A stretch of DNA of 64,000 bases from Trichococcus pasteurii (lineage in GTDB: Bacteria; Bacillota; Bacilli; Lactobacillales; Aerococcaceae), in NCBI RefSeq assembly GCF_900112935.1, contig NZ_FONM01000006.1:1-64000 (forward strand), written 5' to 3'. Of the stretch, positions 55,417 through 63,384 are shown one piece after another; within the stretch, counting starts at the first letter, position 1; the number at the start of each line of letters is the position of its first letter. Made by a program: the position numbers and the translations under genes. Below the pieces are notes generated by a model. It saw only the letters and a list, made by a program, of their open reading frames with translations, made no database searches and was not told the DNA's origin.

Positions 55417-56352
55417 TCAATATTTGATTCTCAGTTTTGCCAATACAGCCTCGGCTTCAGCGAAAAGCTCTTCGATGATTTGTTTGGCAGGACGGATGTT
55501 TCCGATCATCCCGGCGATTTCGCCTGCCATGCATGAACCCGTTTCAATATCCCCATCATGGACGGCGCGAGCCAACGACCCGACCGTCAGTTTCTCCAAC
55601 TCTTCATGGGGTGCGTTCGCTTCTTCCAAGGCAGCGTATTGCTCCAGCATCGAATTGCGGAGTGACCGCACTGGCTCTTTGGCTTTGCGGCCGGTCACGA
55701 TCGTCGCTGTGTCGTTTGCGTCCAACAGAAATTGTCTGTATCTGTCCGAAATCGGGCATTCTTCCGCGGACAGGAATAAGGTACCGACTTGTATGCCTTG
55801 CGCTCCTAATGCATACATCGCGACAACCGAACGGCCGTCCCCGACTCCGCCTGCCCCCAAAACGGGAATGGCAACGGCATCGACAACCTGGGGCAACAAA
55901 GATAATGATGAAGTCTGGCCGATGTGCCCGCCGGCTTCCTGTCCTTCAGCAATGACTGCGTCTGCCCCTGCCGCCTCCATTTTTATGGCATGTTTGACCG
56001 AGGCGATGACGGGAATCACCTTGATGCCCGCTTCTTTGAAAATCGGCATATATTTCTTTGGCGACCCGGCTCCTGTCGTTACGACTCCGATCCCTTCTTC
56101 GAGGATGACTTGCACAAGTTCATCACAATTTGGCATCTGCAGCATCAGATTTACTCCGAACGGCTTGTTTGTGATAGCGCGCGTCAAGCGTATTTCTTCG
56201 CGGAGCTGTTCTGCGGACATGCCGCACGCACCGATGATGCCTAACCCTCCCGCTTCCGAAACGGGGCCTACAAGTTTATGTGTTGAGATGTTCGCCATTG
56301 CCCCTTGCAGAATGGGATATTCGATACCCAATAGTTGTTCCACAGTTGTCAT
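55417..56352 (-). CDS. FabK-like enoyl reductase / nitronate monooxygenase family
   Basis: A 311-residue FMN TIM-barrel protein. YPILQGAMANIST, GAGGVGDGRS and GAQGIQVGTLFL match FabK and nitronate monooxygenases. In this operon the enoyl reductase role (final step of an elongation round) fits best, but sequence alone cannot separate the two. GGAGG precedes ATG 56352. Last gene of the bioY operon, 91 bp after the SDR gene. Confidence 0.75.
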   Translation of the reverse strand: MTTVEQLLGIEYPILQGAMANISTHKLVGPVSEAGGLGIIGACGMSAEQLREEIRLTRAITNKPFGVNLMLQMPNCDELVQVILEEGIGVVTTGAGSPKKYMPIFKEAGIKVIPVIASVKHAIKMEAAGADAVIAEGQEAGGHIGQTSSLSLLPQVVDAVAIPVLGAGGVGDGRSVVAMYALGAQGIQVGTLFLSAEECPISDRYRQFLLDANDTATIVTGRKAKEPVRSLRNSMLEQYAALEEANAPHEELEKLTVGSLARAVHDGDIETGSCMAGEIAGMIGNIRPAKQIIEELFAEAEAVLAKLRIKY

Positions 56353-56443
56353 TATTCATTGCCTCCGTTTTTTATCATTTCGTAACCCATTGCTGTCCTT
56401 GCAAAGAGAACCGGAAAATGCTCCCTCTCCGGTTCCACCTGCT

Positions 56444-57223
56444 TCAAATACAATATTCGGACCTTTCCGGCCGATGATAGTTCCAAACTTGCTCGCCGTT
56501 GATCCCGAATACTGTTCCCGTGGGTGTCTTCGGCGAATCGATCAATTGGATTATCCGGGTCGCAACCTGCTCGCTCGAACCAATCCGCCAATAATCCGGG
56601 AAAGGTTCGCCTTTCCTGGCGCATTCTTCCTCTGCGCGCTTGATGGCCGGAATCGTCATGTCAGTTTTTGCGGCTGGCGAAACAGCATTAACCTGAATGT
56701 TAAAGCGTTTGACTTCGTCCGCCAAAGCATACGTAAATCCGATCACAGCAGCTTTGCTGGCGCTGTAATTCGCTTGACCAAAGACGCCGTACATGCCGGC
56801 GGTTGAAGTCATGGAATAAATATAACTGGGTTCCGGCTGTTTCATCATCTGCTTCACCACCGGCTGGGTGACGTTGTATAAGCTGTTGATGTTGGTATCC
56901 GTGACGTGATCCCAATTTTCTCCGCTCATCTTGTAAAATTGCCCGTCTGCGCAAATGCCTGCATTGTTGATCAAAATATCGATCCTGTCGAATTCCTGAA
57001 CAATGTCCTGGATCAACTGTCGGCAGTCCTTGCGGTCGCGGACATCACAGCGCTTCGCCCAAAGCTGATCTTTGAATTGGACCAAATCCCCCTCTGCCTG
57101 TTCGATGCTTTCCGCAGTCTTCGAAGTGATGACTACCCGGTCTCCCACGCTCAAAAAAGTTTTTGCCAAGGCAAATCCTATGCCTCTTGTCCCGCCAGTA
57201 ATCAATACGATTCTATTTGCCAA
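56444..57223 (-). CDS. SDR ketoreductase (FabG-like)
   Basis: A 259-residue short-chain reductase. ITGGTRGIGFA (cofactor), NNAG, catalytic Ser in SMTSTAG, YSASK (Tyr, Lys). It would reduce 3-ketoacyl to 3-hydroxyacyl thioesters. TTG 57221-57223 was chosen for GGGAAGGG at 8-9 nt; ATG 57250 and a GTG are alternatives. It overlaps the end of the preceding gene. Confidence 0.8.
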   Translation of the reverse strand: MANRIVLITGGTRGIGFALAKTFLSVGDRVVITSKTAESIEQAEGDLVQFKDQLWAKRCDVRDRKDCRQLIQDIVQEFDRIDILINNAGICADGQFYKMSGENWDHVTDTNINSLYNVTQPVVKQMMKQPEPSYIYSMTSTAGMYGVFGQANYSASKAAVIGFTYALADEVKRFNIQVNAVSPAAKTDMTIPAIKRAEEECARKGEPFPDYWRIGSSEQVATRIIQLIDSPKTPTGTVFGINGEQVWNYHRPERSEYCI

Positions 57224-57515
57224 TACAAACACCCTTCCCGATGCATTCATTCTCCCGCCAAACCTCAAATTCACCTTCATGAAGAAATTTCACCTGGGCG
57301 CGTTCGCCCACAAACAATGGCTTCAGGAACTTGTACTCATATTTGGTGATGACTTGGTAATCCCAATGGGCTGATAAAAACGCCTCGACTTTGGCCATAA
57401 TCAAAATGCCGAACACCAATCCTGTGTCATGAATCGGATTGGTGTCTCTTGAAATTGTTTTGTAAGCCCGCAATTCCGCTGGAGAGAAAAGCAAGCTGTT
57501 CGCTTCTGATGTCAT
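57213..57515 (-). CDS. MaoC-like hydratase, catalytic half
   Basis: A 100-residue single hot-dog protein. AYKTISRDTNPIHDTGLVFG carries the D-x-N-P-x-H dyad of (R)-specific enoyl hydratases/3-hydroxyacyl dehydratases. GGAGGG precedes ATG 57513-57515, which overlaps the TGA of the next entry. It probably pairs with that protein as a HadAB-type heterodimer. Confidence 0.75.
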   Translation of the reverse strand: MTSEANSLLFSPAELRAYKTISRDTNPIHDTGLVFGILIMAKVEAFLSAHWDYQVITKYEYKFLKPLFVGERAQVKFLHEGEFEVWRENECIGKGVCIGK

Positions 57516-57859
57516 ATGTGGCCCTCCACCAGCAAAGTGGTCGCGCATGTCGCAATCACTGCATTTTCTTGCTTGATGAGCAACGTATACGTCCAACAAG
57601 GTTTTCCGGGTTTAAAAGGAGCCTTATCGGTAAGGCTTAATGAAATGGCATACGGTTGATGGAAGCCAAGCTCGTGGCAACAGTTGAAGGCTTGCTTCAT
57701 CAGTATCGGCATTTGATCGGCTAATTCCGGCAAGTCGAATTCCTGCCATAACGTCGCCAGATAGCTGAGGCTTATTTTGCTACCCAATGTTGGATCGACG
57801 AGCTGATTGTACGCGCGGATGTCCGCTTCCGAAAACTGCATGATTTTACTGTTCGCCAT
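57512..57859 (-). CDS. MaoC-like hydratase, non-catalytic half
   Basis: A 115-residue protein beginning like a MaoC domain (FSEADIRAYNQLVDPTLGSKISLSY) but without the Asp/His pair. It is likely the substrate-binding partner of the following hot-dog gene. ATG 57857-57859 has GGAAGGCAGG; it overlaps the thiolase end. Confidence 0.65.
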   Translation of the reverse strand: MANSKIMQFSEADIRAYNQLVDPTLGSKISLSYLATLWQEFDLPELADQMPILMKQAFNCCHELGFHQPYAISLSLTDKAPFKPGKPCWTYTLLIKQENAVIATCATTLLVEGHI

Positions 57860-59030
57860 CAATTGGTCCTGCCTTCCTGATGAGCATGGCAGCACCTTGG
57901 CCCCCGCCTACGCACATCGTGATAATGCCGCATCGATTACTTTCATTCCTGTTCAATTCGGTCAGCAGCCTAGTAACCAGGATAGCCCCTGTAGCGCCGT
58001 ACGGATGTCCGAATGCAGTCGCACCGCCGGAAGGGTTGATTTTTTCGATCGGAAAATTGCCCAATTTGATGCAAGCCAATGCCTGCACGGCAAAAGCCTC
58101 ATTCAGCTCAATCACATCGATGTCCTCAAACGTTAACCTTTGGCGTGCCAACAGCTTTTGAACGGCAGGAACGGGACCTAACCCAAAGTCATTGGGATCA
58201 ACCCCTACCGCAACAGCATCGACAACTTGCGCAATCGGCGTCAAATGATAAAGCCGACATGCTTGTTCCGATGCCAAAATCGTGAAGCTCGCCCCATCAT
58301 TGACGGGACAACAATTCCCGGCCGTTATCGTGCCGTTTGCCTTAAAGACCGGCTTCAATCGATTCAAGCTTTCCATGCTGCTTCGGCTTCTCGGGCATTC
58401 ATCGTCACGCAGCAGGAGCTCGTCATTTACTCGAAAAGGTGTGATTTCTGATTGGAATACCCCAGCTTGTTTGGCACTTTGGCATTTCAGTTGACTCTGA
58501 AGCGCAAACGCGTCTTGCTGCTGGCGGGTAATGCCATACTTTTCAGCGAGTTCCTCAGCAGCTGCGCCCATATCCGGATCGCCATATTCGTTAGTGGACA
58601 GTGGCTGGCGTGTCAATATTTGAGGGGCTTGCATGCCATACAGGGATTTAGGCCGTTCAATTTGCCACGGTGCGCGGCTGCTGCTTTCCACACCGCCGCA
58701 AATCATGATTTCGCCGAAACCGGACATTATTTTCATGTGTCCGATGGCAATGGCTTCAAGCCCGGATGCGCATTGACGGTCTACAGTGACCGCCGGCGTT
58801 TCCACAGGCAGACCTGCTTTTAAGGCAACGCGTCTGGCAACATTGCCACCGCCACCGATTACATTTCCAATAATGACCTCATCAGTGTGCTCGTTTAGGC
58901 CCGGATGCTTGTCCAGCATGGTTTTCATCAGGAATCCGCCTAGTTCTTCCGGACCAACGTCGCTGTACATCCCGCCGTACTTTCCGATGGGCAGACGTGC
59001 AGCCTCAACAATATAAACCTTAGATGACAC
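57846..59030 (-). CDS. Thiolase (acetyl-CoA acetyltransferase, YhfS-like)
   Basis: A 394-residue thiolase with both active-site Cys (VDRQCASGLEA; MCVGGGQG) and His motif GGATAFGHPYGATGA. It condenses or cleaves acyl-CoA and acetyl-CoA. GTG start with AAAGGAGC. Located as yhfS is in the B. subtilis yhfUTS (bioY-ligase-thiolase) operon; overlaps the ligase by 11 bp. Confidence 0.85.
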   Translation of the reverse strand: MSSKVYIVEAARLPIGKYGGMYSDVGPEELGGFLMKTMLDKHPGLNEHTDEVIIGNVIGGGGNVARRVALKAGLPVETPAVTVDRQCASGLEAIAIGHMKIMSGFGEIMICGGVESSSRAPWQIERPKSLYGMQAPQILTRQPLSTNEYGDPDMGAAAEELAEKYGITRQQQDAFALQSQLKCQSAKQAGVFQSEITPFRVNDELLLRDDECPRSRSSMESLNRLKPVFKANGTITAGNCCPVNDGASFTILASEQACRLYHLTPIAQVVDAVAVGVDPNDFGLGPVPAVQKLLARQRLTFEDIDVIELNEAFAVQALACIKLGNFPIEKINPSGGATAFGHPYGATGAILVTRLLTELNRNESNRCGIITMCVGGGQGAAMLIRKAGPIDGEQ

Positions 59031-60420
59031 TGGGCACTCGCTCCTTTACTAACTCATGCAGTAATTGTTTCCTGGATATTTTTCCGTTGTTTTGTTTCGG
59101 TATCTCTTCGACGGCGAAAACGTGATCGATTTTGGCAGGACGGGCCATCCGGGCCGATAAATAAGTATTGATTTCGGCCAAGCTCATCACTTGATTTTGG
59201 TCGGACCAAACAATGACGGCTCCAATTTTTTCATTGTAATGTTCATCCGGAATGCCAAGCACGACGATTTCAGCAACAGCCGCCAACTTTAACAAATGAC
59301 GCTCAAATTCCTGCGGATAGAATTTCTCGCCGCCTCGATTGATGCAATCATCTTTTCGGCCATAGTATTCAAGTGTGTTCCCTGCCAATTTGCCCAGATC
59401 ACCGGTTGAAACGCATGCGACTGTGGCTACGTGGTCCTCGCTTTTGCGGTGGTACCCCGCAAAGTTCAAAGGGCTGCTGACCTGTATTTCACCAACGCCT
59501 TCAGCATTGGGCTGATCAATGGTGACCTCCACTCCGGGAAACATCTGGCCGACGCTATTATCGGAAGGTATGCCCTGCACGGTTTCCATCGAAATGTAGC
59601 TTGTTTCCGATGAACCATAGAATTCATATAACTGCACATTCGGGCAATAGTGGTACAGCTTCCTGCGGATGTCCACATTCAGCTTAGCGCCAGATGAAAT
59701 GATTGTGTAGTTTTCCGTCAACACTTCATTTTGAGCCTCCAGTTTGGAAATGAGCGCGTGGATCATGGTCGGTACAAGATAACAAGTCAACGCCTCCGTC
59801 TGCTTGATGAGGGCAATCAGACGATTTGTGGAAAAATGCTGATTCAGGATGAAGGTCTGCCCAAAATAGAGCGTCTGCATCAGCGTGTACAGACTCAAAG
59901 AATAGTGCATCGAGCCAAAGACCGTGGCGCTTTGGCTGCCGGATTGGGGAATCAACGCATTCGTCCCCTCAAAACTCTTGACCCAGGATTGATGGGTTCT
60001 ACGGTAACCCTTCGGCTGCCCGGTCGTCCCCGAGGTAAAGCCGATAAACGCCAAATCGCTTGGTGACGCATATTCAGCAGAATCAACGGGGACGGCAACT
60101 TTTTGGGAAATGGTATGGATATCCATCAACACCAGCGGATCCTCAAACTGATTCAATATATCCTGCAGTCCCTGATCAGAAATGCCAGCATTAACGGGCA
60201 CTGCCACTTTGTCCGCCCGGATCAACGCCAAAAAATTAATCAGTTGCTCAATGGCATTCGACATAGGTGCAAGGATCACTTTTTGAGGAATTCCCGCTAA
60301 TATCTTAGCCCGATCCTGAACGCGCTCCTCCAATTGCTTGTAGGTCACCAATTCTTTCCCATCAATTATCGCTGTCTGCATAGCATTTTTTGCATGCCAA
60401 TCATCAATACGCTTCATCAT
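59020..60420 (-). CDS. AMP-forming acyl-CoA synthetase (YhfT-like)
   Basis: A 466-residue ANL-family ligase: FTSGTTGQPKGY (phosphate loop), YGSSETS, STGDLGKL, YGRKDDCINRGGEKFYP and the C-terminal catalytic Lys in NNGKISR. It activates a carboxylic acid to its CoA ester. Coupling with bioY points to a dicarboxylic or fatty acid linked to biotin synthesis (inference). Confidence 0.85.
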   Translation of the reverse strand: MMKRIDDWHAKNAMQTAIIDGKELVTYKQLEERVQDRAKILAGIPQKVILAPMSNAIEQLINFLALIRADKVAVPVNAGISDQGLQDILNQFEDPLVLMDIHTISQKVAVPVDSAEYASPSDLAFIGFTSGTTGQPKGYRRTHQSWVKSFEGTNALIPQSGSQSATVFGSMHYSLSLYTLMQTLYFGQTFILNQHFSTNRLIALIKQTEALTCYLVPTMIHALISKLEAQNEVLTENYTIISSGAKLNVDIRRKLYHYCPNVQLYEFYGSSETSYISMETVQGIPSDNSVGQMFPGVEVTIDQPNAEGVGEIQVSSPLNFAGYHRKSEDHVATVACVSTGDLGKLAGNTLEYYGRKDDCINRGGEKFYPQEFERHLLKLAAVAEIVVLGIPDEHYNEKIGAVIVWSDQNQVMSLAEINTYLSARMARPAKIDHVFAVEEIPKQNNGKISRKQLLHELVKERVPSVI

Positions 60421-60439
60421 CGCACCTGCCTAAATCAAT

Positions 60440-60988
60440 TTATGCTAACTTAAAGGAAATCAGACTGTAGCGTTTCTTGAGGCGCAAGGTAATCCAAGCT
60501 GCTAAAATCGCTTTAACCGTATCCAGAGGAACAAAGGCCAACGTCATCTTCAATCCGTTTAACCAAGAGTTGCCCATGTAATACGCCATGGAAAAACTGC
60601 CGCAAAAATCAATCAGCAAAGTCCCTCCAAGGATAAAAATGAGAACGGCTTTAGGAAAAGTAAGTTTTTCCCAATTCTTCTCAAGCAAGTAGCCGATCAC
60701 AAGTGGGGCCAACACGTATCCAAGCAAAAACCCGCCGCTTGCGCTGGCGAATATGGCAATACCGCCCCGTCCGCCGGATAAAACCGGAAAACCTACCGCT
60801 ACCATCAGCAGAAAAACACTCACAGCAAGAGGGCCGTATTTCTTGCCGAGCAGCCCGCCCGCGAGCATCATCATCATATTTTGCAGCACGATCGGAACCG
60901 GCAGGCCGGGAAGCGGAATCGTCAATACCCCCGACACAATCATCAAAGCCACCATCATTGTTACCCTAGTCAAAACTTTTGTCTTCAT
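60440..60988 (-). CDS. bioY: Biotin transporter S component BioY
   Basis: A 182-residue ECF-type S component with six helices. PLPGLPVPIVLQNMMMMLAGGLLGKKYG and GGRGGIAIFASASGGFLLGYVLAP are hallmark. It binds biotin and works with a shared EcfAT module elsewhere. First gene of the operon, under a BirA-like operator. Confidence 0.9.
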   Translation of the reverse strand: MKTKVLTRVTMMVALMIVSGVLTIPLPGLPVPIVLQNMMMMLAGGLLGKKYGPLAVSVFLLMVAVGFPVLSGGRGGIAIFASASGGFLLGYVLAPLVIGYLLEKNWEKLTFPKAVLIFILGGTLLIDFCGSFSMAYYMGNSWLNGLKMTLAFVPLDTVKAILAAWITLRLKKRYSLISFKLA

Positions 60989-61019: not shown

Positions 61020-61050
61020 TTGTTACCCTATAAATTATTGCGGTTTACAA
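61020..61050. promoter_or_regulatory. BirA-like operator upstream of bioY
   Basis: TTGTTACCC (61020-61028), 13 bp, GGTTTACAA (61042-61050). Each half has one mismatch from TTGTTAACC / GGTTAACAA; the spacer is a little shorter than the usual 14-16. It lies 32 bp before bioY. Confidence 0.7.
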
Positions 61051-61124
61051 ACAACATGATAACCCATTTCTTTTTATCCCGCAACGCCCTTTTTGACGAA
61101 TCTTGCATGCATCCAAAAAAGAAC

Positions 61125-61690: not shown

Positions 61691-63340
61691 TTATTCGACT
61701 CTGTCATACTGGTTAATTATCAATCTTTCCTTTAACTCTTTTTGGATCGCCGCTAATCGCTTGTTGAAGAAAATGTCATATTCGTCTGTCCAGATTCCCC
61801 ACGTATCCAAATCATTTATTAAATGTGACTTCATCGTCTTAACAATATTTTCGTTACCGGCGACATAATCTTTCATATATACCGATGGTGCTTTATCTCT
61901 TATTTTCTGTTTGTTCAAAAAGTCATCAACCAAAGTAATGTTGGCGATATGGTTGATTTTGTCCTCATCAATCTTCTTTTTGCTAAGATAAGCTCTTGGA
62001 AAGAAATGATGATAATTTTTGCTTGTGGACATTTTAAGATAATCATTGTCTAGAATTACTTTTGAGCCGTCATCAAATGATTTGGGGTCATGATAGGATA
62101 GAATGCAAATCAATGCTTTTATGTAAGCTCGTCCTACCGTAAATTTGCCGTTTTGTTCTAATGCCGAAAGGGATACATCAATGCCCCCTAATTGTTCTGG
62201 TTCTTCTTTCGAAAGTATGCTTTCGATTTTTTTTATATCTTGAGCCATTTTACTTTCCACGCCACTTGAGAATCTCGAAGTAAGGCAGCACCTCCAAAAA
62301 TAATCCTGTAGCCATTTTCTCTGAAAATCATCTGGCTTTTTGCTATTGTTGAAGCAGAAAAAGTAAGCAAAGGGTACCAATAGAGAGTCGTACGGAAGGA
62401 GGCCGGAAACAGGAATCCTATAAAAGGTTCGGAAATAATCTATTGCATCTCTCGTAGCATCGACTGCTTTATCCCAAATGGCTATGAATTCAGTCCTGTT
62501 TGTGGAGAGAATTGATTTCTTAATACAATCCTTGTTTAAAATTAATGAAATCAGTTGTAGCATTACTGTATTGCTGATTGCCCCGAACCGCTTAGTTTCT
62601 AGTTCCTCCAAAAATGCATCATGTTTTTCAGCAAGATCGAACCCAAGCTTCTCGTTATACATTTTTGCTGACATGATTTCAAAAACCGTTAATGTTTTAC
62701 CACCTGTATTTAATCTGGTGAAAACCTCCGTAGCCACCTCGATTGGCGCATCTGTCAGTTCAACGATGGAAAATTGATAGTTCTGAATTTTTGTTCGGTA
62801 CAAACCTATCTGGTTAATTATTTCATTATCATTATATTTAGTTACTATTTTCAACAAATCCATATCAAGCAGTTCTTTTAGAGAAATATACTGAGTTTCG
62901 TTCAAGTTCTCAACATCAGTGACAACAATTTGTTCATCATTTTCTTCAGCAGTCAGATCGATATAAATTCGAGAAAAATCCTCGATTATATTCACCTTCT
63001 TATTTTTGAAATTTTCCCGTTTAACAACCACACCTTTGATTCCAGCATACAGGCTAGTGATTCTCTGCTGACCGTCCAAAACATAATAGACTGAATCACC
63101 TTCAGGAGCATCTTTCAATTTCAAACCACCAATATCTCTTACGGAGCGTAATGTATCTCGTGTTTTCCATAATATGAAAGTCCCTATGGGGTATCCTCTT
63201 AGCACACTATCAATCAACTTTGCGGCATCTTCTTTACTCCAAACATACTCGCGTTGGAATTGAGGGATTTTCACTCTTCCGGAATCAATATCACTCAATA
63301 AATTTACATACTTTATATTATCTGGTTTTGCCTCAGCCAT
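61691..63340 (-). CDS. DUF262/HNH protein, GmrSD-like defence candidate
   Basis: A 549-residue protein. The N-terminal DUF262 (ParB-like) has IPQFQREYVW and YYVLDGQQRITSLYAG; the C-terminus has an HNH/DUF1524-like motif NYHHFFPRAYLSKKK...HIANITLVDD. This is the architecture of single-chain GmrSD-type modification-dependent nucleases. AT-rich (13 G+C in 60 at 62821-62880), consistent with transfer. AAAGGGG precedes ATG 63338-63340. Confidence 0.8.
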   Translation of the reverse strand: MAEAKPDNIKYVNLLSDIDSGRVKIPQFQREYVWSKEDAAKLIDSVLRGYPIGTFILWKTRDTLRSVRDIGGLKLKDAPEGDSVYYVLDGQQRITSLYAGIKGVVVKRENFKNKKVNIIEDFSRIYIDLTAEENDEQIVVTDVENLNETQYISLKELLDMDLLKIVTKYNDNEIINQIGLYRTKIQNYQFSIVELTDAPIEVATEVFTRLNTGGKTLTVFEIMSAKMYNEKLGFDLAEKHDAFLEELETKRFGAISNTVMLQLISLILNKDCIKKSILSTNRTEFIAIWDKAVDATRDAIDYFRTFYRIPVSGLLPYDSLLVPFAYFFCFNNSKKPDDFQRKWLQDYFWRCCLTSRFSSGVESKMAQDIKKIESILSKEEPEQLGGIDVSLSALEQNGKFTVGRAYIKALICILSYHDPKSFDDGSKVILDNDYLKMSTSKNYHHFFPRAYLSKKKIDEDKINHIANITLVDDFLNKQKIRDKAPSVYMKDYVAGNENIVKTMKSHLINDLDTWGIWTDEYDIFFNKRLAAIQKELKERLIINQYDRVE

Positions 63341-63384
63341 CGCAGGATACACCCCTTTGTATTTTAAAAATACGGTGTTTACAG

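Follow-up and report, generated by a model that had tools for sequence, protein, structure and literature searches.

In Bacillus subtilis and Staphylococcus aureus, BirA represses bioY together with yhfS and yhfT, regarded in three papers as putative genes for a fatty-acid ligase and an acetyltransferase (PMC11089781, PMC6391492, PMC7235819). Repression of the S. aureus yhfS-yhfT promoter by BirA was demonstrated with a reporter, with half-repression near 10 nM biotin (PMC6391492). In the sections examined, we found no tested function for yhfS or yhfT (PMC11089781, PMC6391492, PMC7235819). Here, we analyzed a seven-gene operon in a 64 kb window (the whole stretch of DNA under study) from a Trichococcus genome. 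As in B. subtilis and S. aureus, it places bioY, a YhfT-type ligase gene and a thiolase gene downstream of a BirA-like operator. Unlike these systems, it adds a two-part hydratase, a short-chain dehydrogenase/reductase (SDR) and a FabK-like reductase, bioF was not detected in the tested genomes, and among Paenibacillaceae-like genomes a whole energy-coupling factor (ECF) module is built in. The operon belongs to the known BirA-controlled bioY/yhfT/yhfS genes and extends them, and its function is possibly new.

The enzyme genes together cover a full reverse beta-oxidation cycle, and they are linked to bioY and a BirA-like operator; the enzymes are predicted to act on coenzyme A (CoA) esters. 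With known reverse beta-oxidation and (R)-hydroxyacyl-CoA pathways the operon shares the thiolase, a PhaB/FabG-type SDR, an (R)-hydratase (PhaJ-type in those pathways) and an enoyl reductase. Unlike them, it begins with genes for a vitamin transporter and a CoA ligase and has a biotin repressor site; its hydratase is split and HadAB-like, and its enoyl reductase is FabK-like. The following features were identified:

61034-61062, minus strand: promoter-like hexamers TTATCA-17-AATAAT (9/12), a weak match that overlaps the operator
61020-61050, minus strand: predicted BirA-like operator, TTGTAAACC-N13-GGGTAACAA (16/18 half-site bases)
60440-60988, minus strand: bioY, substrate-binding (S) component of a biotin ECF transporter (PF02632, 8.2e-32)
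59020-60420, minus strand: AMP-forming acyl-CoA ligase, YhfT-like (lig; PF00501 and PF13193)
57846-59030, minus strand: thiolase (thio; TIGR01930, 435.5 bits, above the cut-off)
57512-57859, minus strand: hotdog subunit A (maoA), putative non-catalytic half of the two-part (R)-hydratase (predicted structure)
57213-57515, minus strand: hotdog subunit B (maoB), putative catalytic half (PF01575, 27.4 bits, and a D-x4-H dyad)
56444-57232, minus strand: SDR-type 3-ketoacyl reductase, FabG/PhaB-like (sdr; PF00106, 5.3e-52)
55417-56352, minus strand: FabK-like flavin mononucleotide enoyl reductase (fabK; PF03060, 1.2e-68)

All seven reading frames between 55417 and 60988 are intact, and the junctions from bioY to the FabK-like gene measure +19, -11, -14, -4, -20 and +91 bases, with the GTG starts of the thiolase and SDR genes chosen among possible starts. 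An earlier note on this DNA had described these genes, their coordinates and overlaps, an operator at 61020-61050 and an extension of the B. subtilis gene set by the hydratase, ketoreductase and enoyl reductase, and our analysis bears out each of these points. Family assignment by Pfam and NCBIfam is clear for BioY, the AMP-binding ligase, the thiolase and the SDR. The best NCBIfam model for the ligase is PRK07638 (226.5 bits, below the cut-off of 518), and the SDR reaches 187 bits with TIGR01830, also under the cut-off. Those catalytic motifs that we take to be expected of each enzyme were found throughout the run: TSGTTGQPKG, YGSSE, STGDLG and a C-terminal GK in the ligase, RQCASGLEA, NEAFA, GHPYGATG and CVGGGQG in the thiolase, GGTRGIG and YSASK in the SDR. 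The ratio of nonsynonymous to synonymous substitution rates (dN/dS) across five Trichococcus genomes was 0.05-0.27 for each of the seven genes, a sign of selection on all of them, calculated from an ungapped alignment in which the bioY start region is partly out of register in two comparisons.

Hotdog subunit A (115 residues) matched no Pfam or NCBIfam family. Its structural model has a predicted local distance difference test score (pLDDT) of 88.6 and adopts a hotdog fold; the best Foldseek E-value, 7.7e-5, was to an (R)-hydratase, and the top query template modeling score, 0.79, was to HadA of HadAB and chain A of HadBD. The MaoC match of subunit B (100 residues) is marginal, 27.4 bits against a cut-off of 27, and its matches to HadB among PDB profiles are weak (E 0.07); the D-x4-H dyad lies within DTNPIH, whose D, N, P and H are invariant across nine aligned rows. 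Two hotdog subunits of which only one carries the D-x4-H dyad are also found in the mycobacterial (3R)-hydroxyacyl-ACP dehydratase HadAB/HadBC and hydratase ChsH1-ChsH2. The subunits in the window are much shorter, and their partner enzymes suggest CoA esters. Split hydratases with a non-catalytic half are used for long or bulky acyl groups, as in HadAB and ChsH1-ChsH2, both of which were among the structure matches of subunit A.

The last gene product matches solved FabK structures (9pl0, 1.4e-91; 7l00, 2e-88) and has the GGHIG motif. It is FabK-like but is not classed as FabK because its score with TIGR03151, 393.8 bits, lies below the equivalog cut-off of 453.1. The genome has a separate fab cluster (contig 31) that encodes another FabK, a FabG and a FabZ and includes acc genes. 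We rejected the possibility that the operon gene is a copy of this fatty-acid synthesis enzyme, as it is 49% identical to the fab-cluster FabK and closer, at 65%, to a paralogue on contig 21. This paralogue lies between genes for a LysR-type regulator and a CoA-transferase-like protein, the latter followed by a major facilitator superfamily transporter gene (L044:7792-10598; neighbors assigned by reading only).

The operator lies 32-62 bases upstream of bioY and, scored against what we take to be the BirA consensus, TTGTTAACC-N13-GGTTAACAA, is the only site of at least 15 within the window. Mononucleotide-shuffled upstream regions scored 16 in 1 of 2400 trials and at least 14 in 26 of 2400. 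The overlapping promoter-like match is weak, with one found against 0.6 expected by chance. Control of the operon by BirA is predicted from the operator match, and a birA_ligase match above the cut-off was present in all 14 genomes tested, including the host genome. Allowing spacers of 12-16, we detected a BirA-like operator before 10 of 11 operons of the window's type, with 14-18 of 18 bases: at the same place and with the same score in three other Trichococcus genomes, and with scores of 18 in Listeria grayi, 17 in L014, 16 and 15 in Enterococcus, and 14 and 15 in Floricoccus. The sequence upstream of bioY differs in T. ilyis (L032, upstream of 13655), perhaps by an insertion, and contains no operator match above 11/18.

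By the FabK marker (at least 90% identity), 5 of 13 Trichococcus genomes carry the operon, and all seven genes are present in the four marker-positive genomes other than our own. It is missing by this marker from the remaining eight, two of which are just 51 and 63% complete. Outside Trichococcus, we found it in Listeria grayi, three Enterococcaceae-like genomes and two Floricoccus genomes. Gene order is kept across several families at 26-58% identity. In L014-L017, for example, the order is the same at identities of 32-35% for the ligase, 52-55% for the thiolase, 26-35% and 36-43% for hydratase halves A and B, 38-45% for the SDR and 33-41% for FabK. All enzyme genes are present in 10 of the 11 loci; in both Floricoccus genomes the genes from the ligase to fabK are present without bioY, and the operator precedes the ligase as the first gene. 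A scan for subunit B through 84,980 genomes yielded nine loci, a number that does not measure rarity as the patterns were too strict for the Paenibacillaceae forms.

With a profile of the ligase we searched 398 genomes of the class Bacilli and obtained 20 positives at a maximum E-value of 1e-75, namely 17 from one Staphylococcus-like genus (2.3-3.0 Mb), G598, G463, and the host genome. A thiolase gene adjoins the ligase in all 19 loci outside the host. One Staphylococcus-like locus (L067) contains both hotdog genes, half B with DVNPIH, and the locus of G598 (L066) has the order bioY-lig-thio-sdr. In G463, the order is bioY-lig-thio-maoA-maoB-sdr-ecfA-ecfA'-ecfT-fabK, the ecf gene families being assigned by family search in one locus.

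We found the ligase in 58 of 392 genomes of the order to which G463 belongs and examined 57 of these Paenibacillaceae-like loci. All ten genes in the order of G463 are present in 22 loci; a further five lack only bioY and another five only fabK. The remaining loci comprise lig-thio-maoA-maoB-sdr-fabK (two), bioY-lig-thio-sdr-ecf (two), bioY-lig-thio-ecf (three), only bioY-lig-ecfA-ecfA'-ecfT (six), bioY-lig-ecf with one or two fabK matches (two), lig-ecfT (one), and lig-thio-sdr with a ligase of about 40% identity (nine), the last probably being an outgroup that represents another system. The three ecf genes lie between sdr and fabK in 27 loci (22 with and 5 without bioY), and of the 29 loci with a full cycle 27 have the ECF module. 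An operator scoring at least 15 precedes 39 of the 57 loci and 36 of the 40 headed by bioY, in contrast to 0 of the 9 outgroup loci and 0 of 57 shuffles; in 17 loci, birA is adjacent to the operator in divergent orientation. Where the other enzymes are missing, the ligase is still found with the importer, which suggests that it acts on what BioY imports.

Two groups of loci had further features. In L108-L112 and L116, a gene for the putative vitamin transporter Vut_1 (PF02592 in L110, the other five being 94-97% identical) precedes the cycle genes; five of these six loci lack bioY, and no BirA-like site of at least 15 was found in any (0 of 5 bioY-less Vut_1 loci). In L145-L153, the second cluster type with thiolase, SDR and the ligase of about 40% identity, an ecfT-like gene occurs in the same stretch in 9 of 9 loci and a maoB-like match in 6 of 9, with no BirA-like site, perhaps representing an ECF-linked CoA pathway for another compound.

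Looking at biotin synthesis, we found bioY-bioB-bioD-bioA on contig 22 of the host assembly (3.2 Mb, 46 contigs, 100% complete) at L003:7169-10837, preceded by a BirA-like site of 15/18. Here bioB, bioD and bioA exceed their curated cut-offs, bioD and bioA having been searched for in this locus. BioY of this locus and BioY of the operon are distinct (37% identity over 104 residues), and the second BioY preceding bioBDA suggests that the operon BioY partners the enzymes encoded with it. The host genome lacks bioF (best TIGR00858 match 31 bits, cut-off 426). At a maximum E-value of 1e-10, bioF was found in none of the 11 operon genomes nor in G463 (0 of 12 in total), and a search for bioW was negative in all 60 genomes, the host and its relatives. 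The Trichococcus host could thus make biotin only from 7-keto-8-aminopelargonic acid (KAPA) or a later precursor. A bioB gene above the cut-off is present in the five Trichococcus and two Floricoccus genomes carrying the operon and in none of Listeria grayi (G041; a single match, whose 25.8 bits fall far short of the cut-off of 225) and the Enterococcaceae-like G139, G271 and G281. In Floricoccus penangensis, bioB stands without other recognizable biotin genes alongside. Two Trichococcus genomes without the operon FabK contain bioB fragments of about 50 codons (G006, contig 1, 2340436-2340588; G011, contig 23, 24994-25140), as if biotin genes were being lost.

From these observations we tentatively favor, at somewhat less than an even chance, a BirA-controlled salvage of biotin vitamers during biotin starvation. 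BirA with biotin would repress the operon. Under biotin shortage, BioY would act with an ECF energizing module to import a biotin-like acid with too short a side chain, most plausibly bisnorbiotin, the beta-oxidation product of biotin that is shorter by exactly two side-chain carbons. The YhfT-type ligase would join the acid to CoA, the thiolase would condense the acyl-CoA with acetyl-CoA, the SDR would reduce the 3-keto group, the two-part (R)-hydratase would dehydrate, and the FabK-like enzyme would reduce the double bond. The resulting CoA ester would be that of biotin, or that of dethiobiotin in genomes that retain bioB. One turn would equal one two-carbon elongation, and where only ligase and transporter remain, later steps may be done by other enzymes. 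We infer the steps from gene anatomy and the reductive direction from the FabK-type last enzyme, which fits reduction rather than oxidation; the substrate and the release of the product from CoA are likewise presumed. In the tested operon genomes, which lack bioF and in four cases bioB, the elongated acid must serve a cell that depends on imported biotin, and repair of the side chain in a single two-carbon step is the only biotin-related use we found that works without any biotin synthesis gene. The split hydratase, of a kind used for long or bulky acyl groups, also speaks for salvage.

Several points weigh against salvage. The operon BioY retains the D-x-x-K motif, and nothing shows that it takes acids other than biotin. 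No thioesterase or other CoA-releasing enzyme is found among the genes of the operon, and L014 has no fabK match in its locus. BirA control and linkage to bioY are also expected if the operon merely responds to a lack of biotin. No reliable hint at a substrate comes from the ligase, and no solved relative has a biotin-like one: the best single-domain ligase match is coronafacate ligase for the Trichococcus-type profile and the fatty-acyl ligase FadD13 for the L068 ligase. Deduction of the substrate from structure was dropped, as the low confidence of the model (pLDDT 74.6) does not allow pocket analysis and the nearest PDB relatives disagree between ligases. The ligase family is also not confined to salvage genomes, because ligase-thiolase operons without a full cycle occur with bioF-type matches: bioF matched at a maximum E-value of 1e-10 in 10 of 10 partial-operon genomes tested, with only G598 above the cut-off, and the matches below it may represent a related enzyme. 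Finally, Lactobacillales often lack bioF anyway, so its absence is weak evidence for salvage and good evidence against a pimeloyl-CoA product.

The strongest rival, which we nevertheless regard as unlikely, is a biotin-sparing lipid route. When acetyl-CoA carboxylase (ACC) stops for want of biotin and malonyl-CoA runs out, acyl-CoA would be lengthened with acetyl-CoA to make chains or to extend exogenous fatty acids. A complete elongation cycle free of malonyl-CoA under a BirA-like site fits this idea, as does the affinity of the L068 ligase to FadD13, and an accC-type ACC above the cut-off in all 11 operon genomes tested means that biotin shortage would hit lipid synthesis. Such a route leaves unexplained, however, the ECF genes inside the enzyme run and the six loci in which ligase and transporter occur without the cycle, and the host already has its separate fab cluster. 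Gram-positive acyltransferases are thought to use acyl-ACP (acyl carrier protein) or acyl-phosphate, not acyl-CoA, which counts against it as well.

Equally doubtful is that the operon handles another imported acid needed more in biotin shortage, or works oxidatively to trim a biotin analogue whose side chain is longer. Linkage to a transporter would suit any substrate of the BioY type, and the thiolase, hydratase and SDR are reversible. Against the oxidative variant, the FabK-type flavoprotein is, to our knowledge, a reductase in every characterized case, and we know of no natural longer-chain biotin analogue.

The earlier note had proposed that the cycle may extend a shorter dicarboxylic acid to supply pimeloyl-CoA for biotin synthesis and had asked whether bioF/A/D/B exist without bioW, bioI or bioC/H. 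BirA-like control agrees with this, and a full cycle would be able to convert glutaryl-CoA to pimeloyl-CoA, a C5 to C7 extension like that of the BioZ route from glutaryl-CoA to pimeloyl-ACP. According to PMC11089781, BioZ is a FabH-like synthase acting on malonyl-ACP in genomes with bioF; the window operon, by contrast, has a thiolase, and the genome no bioF. The same source reports that B. subtilis is biotin-deficient from loss of BioW alone, which argues that YhfT is no substitute pimeloyl-CoA synthetase (PMC11089781). The host offers bioB, bioD and bioA without bioF, and the results for bioF, bioW and bioB given above speak against the proposal across the other genomes. To reach biotin, pimeloyl-CoA must pass through BioF, the KAPA synthase. 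Without bioF, pimeloyl-CoA therefore has no known use in the operon genomes, and bioI, bioC and bioH, which were not searched, would not rescue the idea; in the four genomes without bioB, the pimelate moiety is not convertible to biotin by any known route, and the operon is kept nonetheless. We consider this explanation very improbable, close to refuted for the window. The note's alternative, another biotin-linked acyl chain, comes close to vitamer salvage.

The possibility that the operon is non-functional, or that lipid genes came to lie beside bioY by chance, might draw on its absence from 8 of 13 Trichococcus genomes by the FabK marker; we rejected it as next to inconceivable given the conserved order in several families and the dN/dS of all seven genes.

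A GmrSD_N (DUF262-like) gene (61691-63352) precedes the operon in the same orientation; weak, broken matches to its product also occur near the T. ilyis operon.

In the open-licence PubMed Central literature we found no description of the full operon or of bacterial bisnorbiotin repair; PMC11089781 mentions bisnorbiotinol, as a selection agent. With slightly less confidence than in salvage itself, and again tentatively, we suggest a vitamin-repair pathway that would undo beta-oxidation damage by one turn of reverse beta-oxidation and of which bioY-yhfT-yhfS of Bacillus and Staphylococcus would be a reduced form. For years, the BirA-controlled yhfT and yhfS have been entered among the putative fatty-acid genes. 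The extended operon puts import, CoA activation and reductive two-carbon elongation in one unit. The whole chemistry occurs where pimeloyl-CoA is unusable, narrowing the open question to a short list of testable substrates. If vitamer salvage holds true, the operon would serve to repair a damaged cofactor, genome-based prediction of biotin auxotrophy would change, and gut and environmental bacteria could use the biotin catabolites of their hosts.

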